DNA of 40,226 nucleotides from an uncultured Bacteroidota bacterium (GTDB taxonomy: Bacteria; Bacteroidota; Bacteroidia; JABEUT01): positions 1-40,226 of the forward strand of contig CAIPDV010000083.1 of NCBI GenBank assembly GCA_903863935.1, in the 5' to 3' direction. This document shows positions 36,491-40,226 of the stretch, one piece after another. The notes beneath the pieces are model-generated. The model did not search any database. It was not told where the DNA came from and saw only the letters and a program-made list of their open reading frames with translations. The number at the start of each line of letters is the position of its first letter. The first letter of the stretch is position 1. The translations under genes and the position numbers were made by a program.

Positions 36491-38716
36491 TTATTTTATA
36501 AATAGCAACTCCCGGTATTTTGGAAATGGCCAGATAGTATCGTCAATAACGAGTTCCAGCTTGTCTGCATGGTAGCGTATTTCGTCAAAACAAGGTTTCA
36601 CATTTTCGCAATATGCAAAGGCTTTGGCTGTGGCTTCTTCAATTTTATTGGCTTTTTTCCGTTCCTCAATCATCTGTTCGGTTTTGTTTCGGATGATTGA
36701 AACACGGTCACTGATTTCCTTAATCATGGATAATTGTGAATCGGCAATATCCTCATACCGGCCTCCATCATGTGTGTTTTCGGTGCCTCCCGCAAATGTA
36801 TGTGAAGGGGTAAAGATCTCTTTAATGCCTTTTACATTTGTAATTAGCATGTTCTGATATTTAAGTGCTGTTGGAATGATCTGTGTCAGGGCCATATCAG
36901 CCATAATACGCGATTCGATCTGAATCTTTTTGGTGTAAATTTCCGCCTGTATCTCATGGCGGGCTTCCTGTTCTCGTTTATTAAATATACCCTGTTTTTC
37001 AAACAGGTTGATGGCTTTTTCAGTTACAAATGCTTCAAGAGCTTCTGGGGTGGTTTGAACATTAGGTAACCCGCGTCTTTCTGCTTCTTTCACCCATTCT
37101 TTACTATAGTTGTTACCTTCAAAACGGATGTTTGCTGATTCAGTAATATAAACGCGCAGGGTTTGAATGATTGCATCTTCAACTGAAGTTCCTTTCTTTA
37201 CTAATGCATCAACTGTTGCTTTGAACTGTGTTAGCTGCTCAGCTACAATTGTATTAAGAACCAACATAGACTGGGCACAGTTAGCTGATGAACCCACAGC
37301 ACGGAACTCAAACTTATTACCTGTAAAAGCAAAAGGTGAAGTACGGTTACGGTCAGTATTATCAAGTGTTAATTCAGGAATATGGCCGATATCAAGCTTA
37401 ATTGATTTCTTTCCGGCTGACTTTTCAACTTTTACTTTCTTTTCAAAGTTATCAAGCACCTTGGTTAATTGCTGGCCAATGAATACGGAGATAATGGCTG
37501 GTGGTGCTTCATTCGCGCCAAGTCTGTGTTCATTTCCGGCTGATGCAATACTTGCCCTTAATATATCTGAATAGTCGTGAACAGCTTTAATAGTATTAAC
37601 AAAGAAGGTAAGGAACTGTAGATTTGAATCAGGGGTTTTGCCGGGGCTTAACAGGTTTACACCTGTGTCGGTTGCCATACTCCAGTTATTGTGTTTACCT
37701 GAACCATTCACTCCGGCAAATGGTTTTTCATAGAATAAAGCTCTTAAATGATGACGCCGTGCTATCTTATCCATCAAATCCATAAGGAGTTGATTATGGT
37801 CGACAGCAATATTTACTTCTTCGAAGATAGGGGCTACTTCATATTGGTTAGGAGCTACTTCGTTATGCCTGGTCTTTAAAGGAATGCCCAGTTTATAGGA
37901 TTCGGTTTCAAAATCACGCATATATTCATTTACCCTTTCAGGGATAGATCCGAAATAATGATCTTCCAATTGTTGGCCTTTGGCAGGATTAGCTCCGAAT
38001 AAAGCTCTTCCGGCATGAACCAGATCAGGTCGCACATTAAAAAGGGCTTCATCAACCAGAAAATATTCCTGTTCCCATCCAAGTGTTGCAATCACCTTCT
38101 TAACATTCGGGTCGAAGTAATTACATACCGGAATAGCCGCTTTATTGAGTGCATTTAAAGCTTTAAGTAAAGGGGTCTTATAATCCAGAGCCTCACCAGT
38201 ATATGAAATATAAATTGTAGGTATGCAAAGAGTCTTTCCAAAGATGAATGCCGGGGAGGATGGATCCCATCCGGTGTAGCCGCGTGCCTCAAAAGTACTA
38301 CGAATTCCTCCGCTTGGGAAACTCGAAGCATCCGGTTCCTGCTGAACCAATTGTCCGCCTCCGAATTTTTCCATTGCTTTACCTTCCGGAGAAACATCCA
38401 GGAACACATCATGCTTTTCCGCAGTAGCACCTGTTAATGGCTGAAACCAGTGAGTATAGTGAGTAACCCCATTTTCCAATGCCCAGCTCTTCATGGCTAT
38501 AGCCACTTCATCGGCTGTTGCACGGTCAATTGCAACATTGTTGTCAATGGCTGCTTTTAAAGTCTTTAAAACACCATCGGAAAGGTATTTCGACATTACA
38601 TCGTGACTGAATACATTCACGCCGAAAAAATCGGATACTTTATTGGAAGGCAGTTCCACATTAATGGGTTGCCTCGAAATGGCTTCTTGTAAGGCTTTAA
38701 AGCGGATTGAGCTCAT
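36491..38716 (-). CDS. glnN: glutamine synthetase type III
   Basis: A 741-residue GSIII that makes glutamine from glutamate, ammonia and ATP. It has the ~730-residue length of the class, against ~470 for GSI. Visible landmarks are an N-terminal beta-grasp region, the GWEQEYFLVDE segment (about 213-223), RHNEVAPNQYEVAPIFEE, FAGVNGSGKHNNWS (catalytic core), NEHRLGANEAPPAIISVFIG, and NRTSPFAFTGNKFEFRAVGS. GSIII is the main glutamine synthetase in many Bacteroidota. A -7 box (TAAATTTG, 38791-38798) lies 74 bp upstream and a 34-bp palindrome further up. Confidence 0.96.
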   Translation of the reverse strand: MSSIRFKALQEAISRQPINVELPSNKVSDFFGVNVFSHDVMSKYLSDGVLKTLKAAIDNNVAIDRATADEVAIAMKSWALENGVTHYTHWFQPLTGATAEKHDVFLDVSPEGKAMEKFGGGQLVQQEPDASSFPSGGIRSTFEARGYTGWDPSSPAFIFGKTLCIPTIYISYTGEALDYKTPLLKALNALNKAAIPVCNYFDPNVKKVIATLGWEQEYFLVDEALFNVRPDLVHAGRALFGANPAKGQQLEDHYFGSIPERVNEYMRDFETESYKLGIPLKTRHNEVAPNQYEVAPIFEEVNIAVDHNQLLMDLMDKIARRHHLRALFYEKPFAGVNGSGKHNNWSMATDTGVNLLSPGKTPDSNLQFLTFFVNTIKAVHDYSDILRASIASAGNEHRLGANEAPPAIISVFIGQQLTKVLDNFEKKVKVEKSAGKKSIKLDIGHIPELTLDNTDRNRTSPFAFTGNKFEFRAVGSSANCAQSMLVLNTIVAEQLTQFKATVDALVKKGTSVEDAIIQTLRVYITESANIRFEGNNYSKEWVKEAERRGLPNVQTTPEALEAFVTEKAINLFEKQGIFNKREQEARHEIQAEIYTKKIQIESRIMADMALTQIIPTALKYQNMLITNVKGIKEIFTPSHTFAGGTENTHDGGRYEDIADSQLSMIKEISDRVSIIRNKTEQMIEERKKANKIEEATAKAFAYCENVKPCFDEIRYHADKLELVIDDTIWPFPKYRELLFIK

Positions 38717-38882: not shown

Positions 38883-38980
38883 AGATTTTGTATCTTAGCC
38901 TCCCTTAATAAAACCTAAAAACGCCTGATATAAATTCCTCTGTTTTTTTAAAACCGCGCCATTTTTTAAATCTCGCCATT

Positions 38981-39196
38981 TTGTTTTTAGTCCTTGCTTT
39001 TCTGTCCAATTGTACCTCAACACATAATAATTCAATATCTTTTGGGAAAAGAAAGTACACAAAAGGACATTTTTCAGACCCGGTTGCAAAACTAAAAATG
39101 AAGTACACGAATGATAAACAAAAGCAGAGTGTATCAACTGAAGCGAAAAGCGAAAAAATAAAAAATGAACTTGCAGGGAAGAAAACTAGAAAATGA
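38981..39196 (+). CDS. small YTKGHFSDPV lipoprotein, start uncertain
   Basis: The TTG 38981 frame gives 71 residues with a short hydrophobic stretch and lipobox (FLSNC) and the motif FGKRKYTKGHFSDPVAKLK, followed by a Lys/Ser-rich tail. The frame is open back to about 38912 and the stretch before TTG (HFLNLAILFLVLAFL) completes a signal peptide, but there is no ATG or GTG; a codon at 38954 (CCG) sits where a natural start would be. TATCTTAG (38891-38898) resembles a -7 box. The paralogue at 39589 shares the motif. The stop lies 32 bp inside the next gene. Confidence 0.6.
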   Translation: MFLVLAFLSNCTSTHNNSISFGKRKYTKGHFSDPVAKLKMKYTNDKQKQSVSTEAKSEKIKNELAGKKTRK

Positions 39197-39497
39197 TAGC
39201 TTTTCAAGCAATTCAATTGGGTCAGGTTATGGCGATAGTAGTTCGACAAAATCAGGTATTCTTTTACTGCTGGCCATTACTTGTTTGTTATTAGCCCTGG
39301 TAATGTATTGCCTTGTACTGGTGGCAGATATAGCAGGAGGCACGGGCTTGGGCTGCCTTTTAGTAGGAGCAACCATCATCCTTGGAGTTCTTGGCTTGAT
39401 ATTCCTGATTATGTGGCTTGTTTCGCTTAAACATCGATTTTACGGTTTAAATCATATTCAAAGGCCAGTGGGGCAGAAACTAGTTAAACCATGGTAG
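39165..39497 (+). CDS. small membrane protein downstream of the YTKGHFSDPV lipoprotein
   Basis: A 110-residue protein overlapping the preceding lipoprotein frame by 32 bp, suggesting coupled expression. A polar Ser/Gly-rich head (NSIGSGYGDSSSTKSG) is followed by two long hydrophobic helices (ILLLLAITCLLLALVMYCLV and CLLVGATIILGVLGLIFLIM) and a basic tail. The paralogous locus downstream has both features, motif and Gly-rich junction, in one frame. No function recognised. Confidence 0.65.
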   Translation: MNLQGRKLENDSFSSNSIGSGYGDSSSTKSGILLLLAITCLLLALVMYCLVLVADIAGGTGLGCLLVGATIILGVLGLIFLIMWLVSLKHRFYGLNHIQRPVGQKLVKPW

Positions 39498-39588
39498 CAT
39501 ATGGCTGAAATCCTAATTTTTAAGGTTTTATAATTACATATCATATAATTTGTACATTAGCCGCATAATTTCCTATTAACCACTTGCT

Positions 39589-40090
39589 ATGAACAACGAT
39601 TATTTCACCAGACTGAAACGCATTTTTTCACTCCTTATCTTACTTTGCAGCCGTTTCCATGCTTACCTATTGCACTTCGAATGGGGGAAGGCTGGCATCT
39701 TCGTTTAATAAAAGACATTATACCAAAGGGCATTTCTCCGATCCTGTTGGAAAGGTGAATACTACTTATAAAAACTATAAAAAACCTGCAATTGCATCAA
39801 CCACTCCTAAACAGGAAAGCACTACACCTAATGAAAAGGCGCAGTCAGCTTCTTCAGGGAACAATACTTCAGAAGGAGTTCAAAACAATAGCAACAGCAC
39901 AAACACTAAACAGGCAACCGCTACTACCGTTAATGATAATAACAATGCCCCTGTAACAGGAGATAATAATGCTTCTGCCGAAGAAAACGCATCTGCTTCA
40001 AACCCGGCAGTAGATTATACAGGCCATGGCGACCGAATGGCTGGGCCTCCAAATAATGCCAACGGACTTTTACTAGGGTGGATACTGTAA
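39589..40090 (+). pseudogene. second YTKGHFSDPV lipoprotein, frameshifted and truncated at the 3' end
   Basis: ATG 39589 begins a signal peptide (MNNDYFTRLKRIFSLLILL) whose frame is lost at a TTT run (39644-39646). Removing one T joins it to AAVSMLTYCTSNGG with a lipobox Cys and then FNKRHYTKGHFSDPVGKVN, nearly the same motif as the protein at 38981. A ~90-residue Asn/Thr/Ser/Ala-rich linker follows and the frame ends at GLLLGWIL, the beginning of a hydrophobic helix, where the IS-like sequence starts. A TACATTAG near-consensus box is at 39553-39560. Confidence 0.7.
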
Positions 40091-40226
40091 ATCTTCAGCA
40101 TAAAGTGGACTAAAAATAGTTAAAAATAAGATAGTGTTTCCAAAAACTATTAACTTTAAATAATTATGGAAACAAAGAGTAAACAAACATCCGAGAACTT
40201 CATTAAAGAAGTAAGAAGAAAGACAC
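40086..40226 (+). mobile_element. left end of an insertion sequence (partial)
   Basis: The transposase start at 40166 is preceded by ~80 bp of non-coding sequence beginning TGTAAATCTTCAGC, immediately after a hydrophobic helix breaks off in the upstream gene. TG at the end is usual for IS3-type elements. The right end is outside the window, so the boundary is an inference. Confidence 0.5.
40166..40226 (+). CDS. IS3-family transposase OrfA, 5' fragment
   Basis: The first 20 codons (METKSKQTSENFIKEVRRKT) resemble the N-terminus of OrfA proteins of IS3-type elements, which carry a helix-turn-helix and are made with OrfB by frameshifting. The window ends here, so domain and family cannot be verified. 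Confidence 0.6.
   Translation, partial: METKSKQTSENFIKEVRRKT

Follow-up and report, generated by a model that had tools for sequence, protein, structure and literature searches.

A short N-terminal tag and a C-terminal membrane hairpin mark an apparently undescribed lipoprotein family in Bacteroidota, with two probably decaying copies beside glutamine synthetase III

SlyB and the 17 kDa antigen are glycine-zipper 2TM lipoproteins that are not known to have a spacer of ~100 residues or a tag. The proteins described here likewise join a lipoprotein to a C-terminal two-helix segment, yet their helices are strongly hydrophobic, and no glycine-zipper family was among the nine Pfam families listed for 145 members. 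TonB-type linkers combine an inner-membrane helix, a long disordered spacer and a contact at the outer membrane; in the present family this orientation is reversed, the far end being the lipidated N-terminus, and the model has no folded domain. The C-terminal hairpins of some members resemble Pmp3/YqaE (PF01679), DUF5670/lmo0937 (PF18919, NF033488), TM2 (PF05154) or DUF4190 (PF13828), models that cover the hairpin only and leave the lipobox, the KR-Y--G tag and the linker outside. As a short conserved stretch past a lipidated Cys, the tag is reminiscent of the lipoprotein export signal (LES) of the same phylum, which the accessible parts of the source present as an acidic K-(D/E)2 stretch beside the Cys, at +3 to +5, with a critical position (PMC5080379), whereas the family tag is basic and aromatic, lies farther from the Cys and is variable in position. 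SHOCT, as far as the accessible text of its description goes, is another very short conserved element with many partners and is predominantly C-terminal (PMC3581485), while the family tag sits at the N-terminus and goes with lipoproteins. Neither the tag strings nor the architecture was described in the literature that we searched, which was largely free of subscription papers; these lipid-anchored, KR-Y--G-tagged hairpin proteins apparently constitute an undescribed family.

The window, a 40,226-nucleotide stretch from an uncultured Bacteroidota bacterium, ends with two tandem loci that carry the motif and adjoin, in divergent orientation, a gene for type III glutamine synthetase (36491..38716, minus strand; Pfam GSIII_N 1.3e-74), our synteny anchor. 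The first-pass annotation had described them as paired lipoproteins with unrelated linkers and an almost identical motif of 14 residues, the first being followed by an overlapping two-helix membrane protein as a second gene. The likeness of the motifs was borne out, albeit over 13 residues, 12 of which are identical between KRKYTKGHFSDPV in locus 1 (39047-39085) and KRHYTKGHFSDPV in locus 2 (39710-39748), and the linkers are indeed unrelated beyond them; in both loci the motif lies 12-13 residues past the lipobox Cys (39011-39013 and 39671-39673). The genes themselves turned out to be damaged. The N-terminal part of locus 1 (38930..39196, plus strand) comprises a degenerate signal peptide, the lipobox Cys, the motif and the start of the linker, aligns with residues 17-97 of the intact relative L282 (E 3e-19) and closes at a stop codon at 39194-39196. 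The end of the linker and a two-helix membrane hairpin follow in the next frame (39162..39497, plus strand; residues 156-231 of L282, E 2e-6), which is open from 39162 and holds an ATG ORF of 110 aa at 39165-39497. The frame changes between 39162 and 39196, most of the linker that corresponds to L282 residues 97 to 156 is missing, and no ATG, GTG or TTG stands upstream of the Cys at signal-peptide distance, the sole candidate being an ATA at 38930. In locus 2, the start codon and the first half of the signal peptide (39589..39628, plus strand; MNNDYFTRLKRIFSLLI... from the ATG at 39589) lie out of frame with the motif, the change falling near a T6 run at 39623. The remainder (39629..40085, plus strand; residues 26-176 of L282, E 2e-23) comprises the end of the signal peptide, the Cys, the motif, an Asn/Thr/Ala-rich linker and the first residues of TM1, ending at GLLLGWI where a repeated element enters at 40086. 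The beginning of a membrane helix noted earlier for this locus is thus a helix cut by the element. The missing half of locus 2, sought beyond the element, was not found.

L282 is a single intact ORF of 233 codons in genome G005, from the same genus, where it stands divergent from a glutamine synthetase III that is 89% identical to that of the window; it reads ...FLSYCTTSPKTASNFGKRKYTHGHFSDPVAKVKMEY... and then runs on to a C-terminal hairpin. A similar intact ORF in G007 (L043) is likewise divergent from glutamine synthetase III. Both L282 and L043 unite lipobox Cys, tag, linker and C-terminal TM in one ORF, parts which the window copies hold in broken frames; in locus 2 the series ends where TM1 starts. 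Because both ORFs of locus 1 align to the single intact L282, we read the locus as one gene with a frame change, and the supposed second gene as the C-terminus of its own protein. Two separate partner genes are ruled out by the same mapping of both halves to one intact ORF (G005, G007), and a programmed frameshift was not adopted, since relatives have no conserved split. Nor was non-AUG initiation taken as a family rule: several genus members use TTG, and only locus 1 and L006, among those listed, have none of ATG, GTG and TTG. Within the genus, 5 of 9 glutamine synthetase III loci carry a family member in the flank, divergently in the window's own genome, G005 and G007 and co-directionally in G006 and G010. 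The latter two members have the variant tag KRKY.NFK, and the hairpin of the one in G006 matches Pmp3.

The element at the end of the window (40086..40226, plus strand), which truncates locus 2 and at which the assembly breaks, starts with TGTAAATC... at 40086 and reads TGTAAATCTTCAGC...; the TAA stop of locus 2 falls inside it, and so does the start of an ORF, METKSKQTSENFIKEVRRKT, of which 20 codons are present. Its end recurs at eight places in the genome (the window and seven others), in differing contexts and several times at contig ends, which suggests an insertion-sequence-like repeat. A ninth match of the exact 14-mer, L197, falls within an unrelated coding region, and we ascribe it to chance.

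Judged from their sequences, the two window loci are probably decaying copies of one gene, likely after a tandem duplication, and in this genome neither copy beside glutamine synthetase III appears functional. For this pair only, the frame changes, which do lie near A/T homopolymers (the T6 run at 39623 and A-runs at 39153-39193), might instead stem from faults of the assembly, or from phase variation at homopolymers, in genes that otherwise work. We nevertheless hold this to be quite improbable, as the damage is of several types (a start codon, two frame changes and an element insertion), the paralogue L003 on contig C58 is damaged as well, by an in-frame stop, and the genes next to the window loci are intact.

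The motif is not a product of chance, because a two-row profile made from the window copies retrieves five further paralogues in the same genome (E 1.7e-7 to 6.7e-4), all of which show the same layout in translation. The genome thus holds seven copies, of which the two in the window and L003 are broken and L006 has no usual start. A family profile of 42 positions, derived from 31 N-terminal segments, matches at least 128 of 396 class genomes and at least 67 of 198 genera at E ≤ 0.01, in a survey that scored at most 18 candidates per genome, with correspondingly limited recall, and for which about four genomes are expected by chance. Phylum-wide, 2 of 392 genomes matched at E ≤ 1e-4, both from the same class, a count for which the share of the 392 outside the class is not given and which leaves class restriction unproven. 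No viral carriage was confirmed in the 85 pattern stretches examined.

From 181 loci we obtained 177 profile matches, 170 of which contain the motif as a regular expression; seven were left out for failing it (five KRKYLKNFK, one KRKYYNFK, one KRHNSTG), and L039 was later dropped as doubtful. We take as the family signature a lipobox Cys, KR[KRH]YxxG within ~25 residues, a linker of ~100 residues and a C-terminal TM, all in one ORF. The layout of the 170 candidates is constant: a lipobox Cys; a short, Ser/Asn-rich spacer of mostly 6-14 residues; KR[KRH]YxxG followed by aromatics, in its fuller form KR[KRH]YxxG[YFHW][YFH]; ~100 unconserved residues; and C-terminal membrane helices, which form a hairpin or at times number more than two. 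The lipobox is present in 167 of 169 members (L039 excluded), the exceptions being L058 and L037. A hydrophobic segment lies downstream of the motif in 161 of the 170 candidates. For most of the nine without one a reason is at hand, these being the two window copies, L003 and several truncated or short ORFs; L144 and L172 have no such explanation, and L039 is doubtful. Tandem arrays are common in the family. They reach up to four members with differing linkers and hairpins (L052/L049 in G001:C32, L053 in G003:C60, L054/L047 in G009:C8, L119 in G094:C2, L149 in G282:C34), which suggests rapid birth and death.

Column counts for the tag among the 170 candidates are 150 for K, 161 for R, 165 for [KRH], 150 for Y (with H in 14) and 167 for G. 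Across 145 full proteins only the G is invariant, C, K, R and Y reach 90%, and identity per column averages 8%. In a variant of the tag, NFK or HFK replaces GYY (e.g. KRKYLKNFK, KRKYYNFK); it was seen in L131, L136, L030, L155, L157, L222, L225, L233, L249 and L288, and several members tagged in this way carry Pmp3-type hairpins. In L058 (G008:C44) and L037 (G055:C16) the lipobox is lost; the signal peptide has a signal-peptidase-I-like end with a Gln near the mature start, and the motif is kept, still near the mature N-terminus. Since these two proteins keep the motif without a lipobox, the tag is not only a lipid-handling signal. We further related motif and TM in strict ATG lipoprotein candidates, drawn from stretches around family members and from part of the window's own genome (about 418 kb of 3.76 Mb, window included). 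A downstream TM was present in 71 of 73 lipoproteins with the motif and in 5 of 41 without it, motif counts being enriched in this sample because its stretches were chosen around family members. On our reading, three of the five cases without the motif carry a variant of it (KRKVNKGFF twice, KRTFNNGYY), and in the other two, which are polytopic, the lipobox is false.

Between tag and hairpin, length is the feature that stays narrow. The median distance from the motif Gly to the start of TM1 is 107 residues (IQR 102-115, range 82-162, n = 161), and 89% of the linkers fall within 85-125 residues. They are rich in Lys, Ser, Ala, Thr, Glu and Asn and have 0.35 4-mers in common per pair, against 0.27 when shuffled. 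The O-glycosylation motif D[ST][AILVMT] occurs 51 times in the linkers; shuffled sequences give 41 (sd 6), and the excess is too small to support glycosylation. At about 0.34 nm per residue, the shortest linker (82 residues) would extend to ~28 nm, enough for a periplasm. AlphaFold2, run on L050 with ten relatives, predicted a signal helix, a stretch at 42-144 with pLDDT < 50 for almost every residue, and a helical hairpin at 153-226 with a pLDDT of ~84 (mean pLDDT 58.8, pTM 0.29); a fold search with this model gave no useful match (best E 0.8). Length and predicted disorder are consistent with a periplasm-spanning tether, yet the length could have been inherited rather than selected, many members being related. 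The loop charge of 91 two-TM members (34 positive, 7 negative) weakly favours a hairpin with both N- and C-terminus out.

The hairpins themselves appear exchangeable. Pfam searches of the 145 members returned Pmp3 for 19, DUF4190 for 12, DUF5670 for 11 (E ≤ 0.001) and TM2 for 4, most members matching nothing; the lmo0937 model recognised 13 of the 145, and the hairpin of L059 scored 25.9 bits with DUF5670, for a cut-off of 23.5. The locus 1 hairpin has no match above cut-off to Pmp3, DUF5670/lmo0937, TM2 or DUF4190, and Pmp3 (PF01679) matched neither window locus nor anything else in the same genome. In the class, Pmp3 matches occur in 40 of 149 genomes. Thirty Pmp3 loci divide into 9 naked short ORFs, 15 with lipobox and linker, 3 that lack the motif and whose signal is non-lipidated, and 3 that could not be judged. 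The tag of the 15 lipobox loci is canonical in 10, of the NFK/HFK variant in 4 and diverged in 1, and among Pmp3 ORFs of at least 100 codons (n = 21), 15 have a lipobox, 14 of these with the KR-Y motif. Most DUF5670 matches in the class are naked, and naked DUF5670 genes adjoin fusions of lipobox and motif with DUF5670 or Pmp3 at G005:C145:33008-34081 and G016:C73:71161-71518, where they are a possible source of new fusions. Given that Pmp3 and DUF5670 are often naked short genes, very hydrophobic hairpins might work alone.

As to genomic context, the first-pass annotation had proposed looking for a two-helix protein beside each match and for a conserved neighbourhood. The former proved to be the C-terminus of the same protein, and the latter is generally absent, the largest neighbour clusters covering 6 of 94 loci, apart from the glutamine synthetase III locus, which is partly kept in the genus. 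One of the three largest clusters consists of DUF2752 membrane proteins, which stand beside members with TM2 or Pmp3 hairpins at 6 of 94 loci by clustering and also on contig C16 of the window's own genome (L005:2122-2421, L087:664-990, L141:4021-4347, L148:2558-2998, L083:691-1002); Pfam confirmed this identity at four of the six clustered loci and for the own-genome neighbour in L005. Other expectations fared better: as the profile survey of the class attests, lipoproteins of Bacteroidota do show the KRxYxxG form repeatedly. The motif is the only conserved part of the 145 proteins, and the suggested binding or sorting role is a reasonable one.

We tentatively put first, though at somewhat short of an even chance, a two-point envelope tether whose tag docks at the lipid end. 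The protein would be held at two points, with the hairpin in the inner membrane and the tag as the part that docks, recognised by a common receptor; the linker would serve as a ruler and the hairpin as an exchangeable effector or anchor, with the outcome that the envelope is tethered or that small hairpins of the Pmp3, TM2 or DUF5670 type are positioned. We prefer this reading for accounting at once for a spacer under constraint, a tag that stays constant and a hairpin that varies; L058 and L037, in which the tag persists although the lipobox is gone, are a further reason. The proposed common receptor would, in turn, explain why the tag alone is conserved. The main rival, somewhat unlikely in our judgement, takes the tag for an inner-membrane retention signal akin to Lol avoidance that would spare a lipoprotein with membrane helices from extraction by LolCDE, with the linker as a mere periplasmic loop. 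A conserved N-terminus alone would fit retention too, as would the near one-to-one relation of motif and TM (71 of 73 against no convincing case among 41 after inspection, in the family-enriched sample) and the Pmp3 proteins, in which 14 of the 15 longer lipobox ORFs bear the KR-Y motif and the three non-lipidated ones do not. Retention, however, leaves the narrow linker length unexplained and sits poorly with the two proteins that kept the motif despite loss of the lipobox. The aromatic-rich tag is, moreover, larger than known avoidance signals; that of E. coli is Asp at +2, a residue found there in 2 of 167 members.

Weight could instead be laid on the hairpins, as stress-type small membrane proteins (Pmp3, TM2, DUF5670, DUF4190) that modulate the membrane and for which lipid and tag are an extra anchor or stability signal. 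This is supported by known modules in as many as 46 of the 145 members (the sum of the four family counts), by the common occurrence of naked hairpin relatives in the class and by the naked DUF5670 genes next to fusions in G005 and G016. In these proteins, however, few parts vary more than the hairpin and none less than the tag, although the tag should drift if the hairpin were what mattered, and we consider the explanation improbable. A role of the tag in surface export or T9SS-related sorting, as the first-pass annotation had entertained, suits Bacteroidota lipoproteins with a motif near the Cys and is in our view very improbable indeed. The export signal of the phylum, going by the accessible parts of its description (PMC5080379), is acidic and lies at +3 to +5, and two or more acidic residues at +2 to +6 occur in 1 of 167 members, compared with 6 of 41 non-motif lipoproteins. 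SprA is present in 384 of the same 396 genomes, and motif-positive G067 has no SprA match; because SprA is nearly universal, no signal of co-occurrence with T9SS emerges. C-terminal helices would, besides, hinder release to the surface. To return to the tether, its most comprehensive form strikes us as doubtful: that in the class concerned, apparently Bacteroidia, a dedicated tag beside the lipidated Cys marks nearly all helix-bearing lipoproteins, that a shared receptor reads it, and that interchangeable inner-membrane hairpins are in this way joined through a disordered ruler of ~100 residues to the outer membrane or to a fixed periplasmic partner.

In summary, an apparent lipoprotein-plus-hairpin pair can be one broken gene, a lesson for the reading of such loci elsewhere. 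A simple profile now recognises the family and sets its hairpin proteins apart from surface-exported lipoproteins, by which lipoprotein retention or inner-to-outer membrane tethering in Bacteroidota becomes directly testable. Proteins that otherwise resist alignment share a five-residue signature in roughly one third of the class genomes sampled, with many copies in some of them, which points to a common and apparently undescribed envelope receptor or pathway. The comprehensive form of the tether, if true, would add an envelope tether of a new class, together with a new kind of address tag for lipoproteins.
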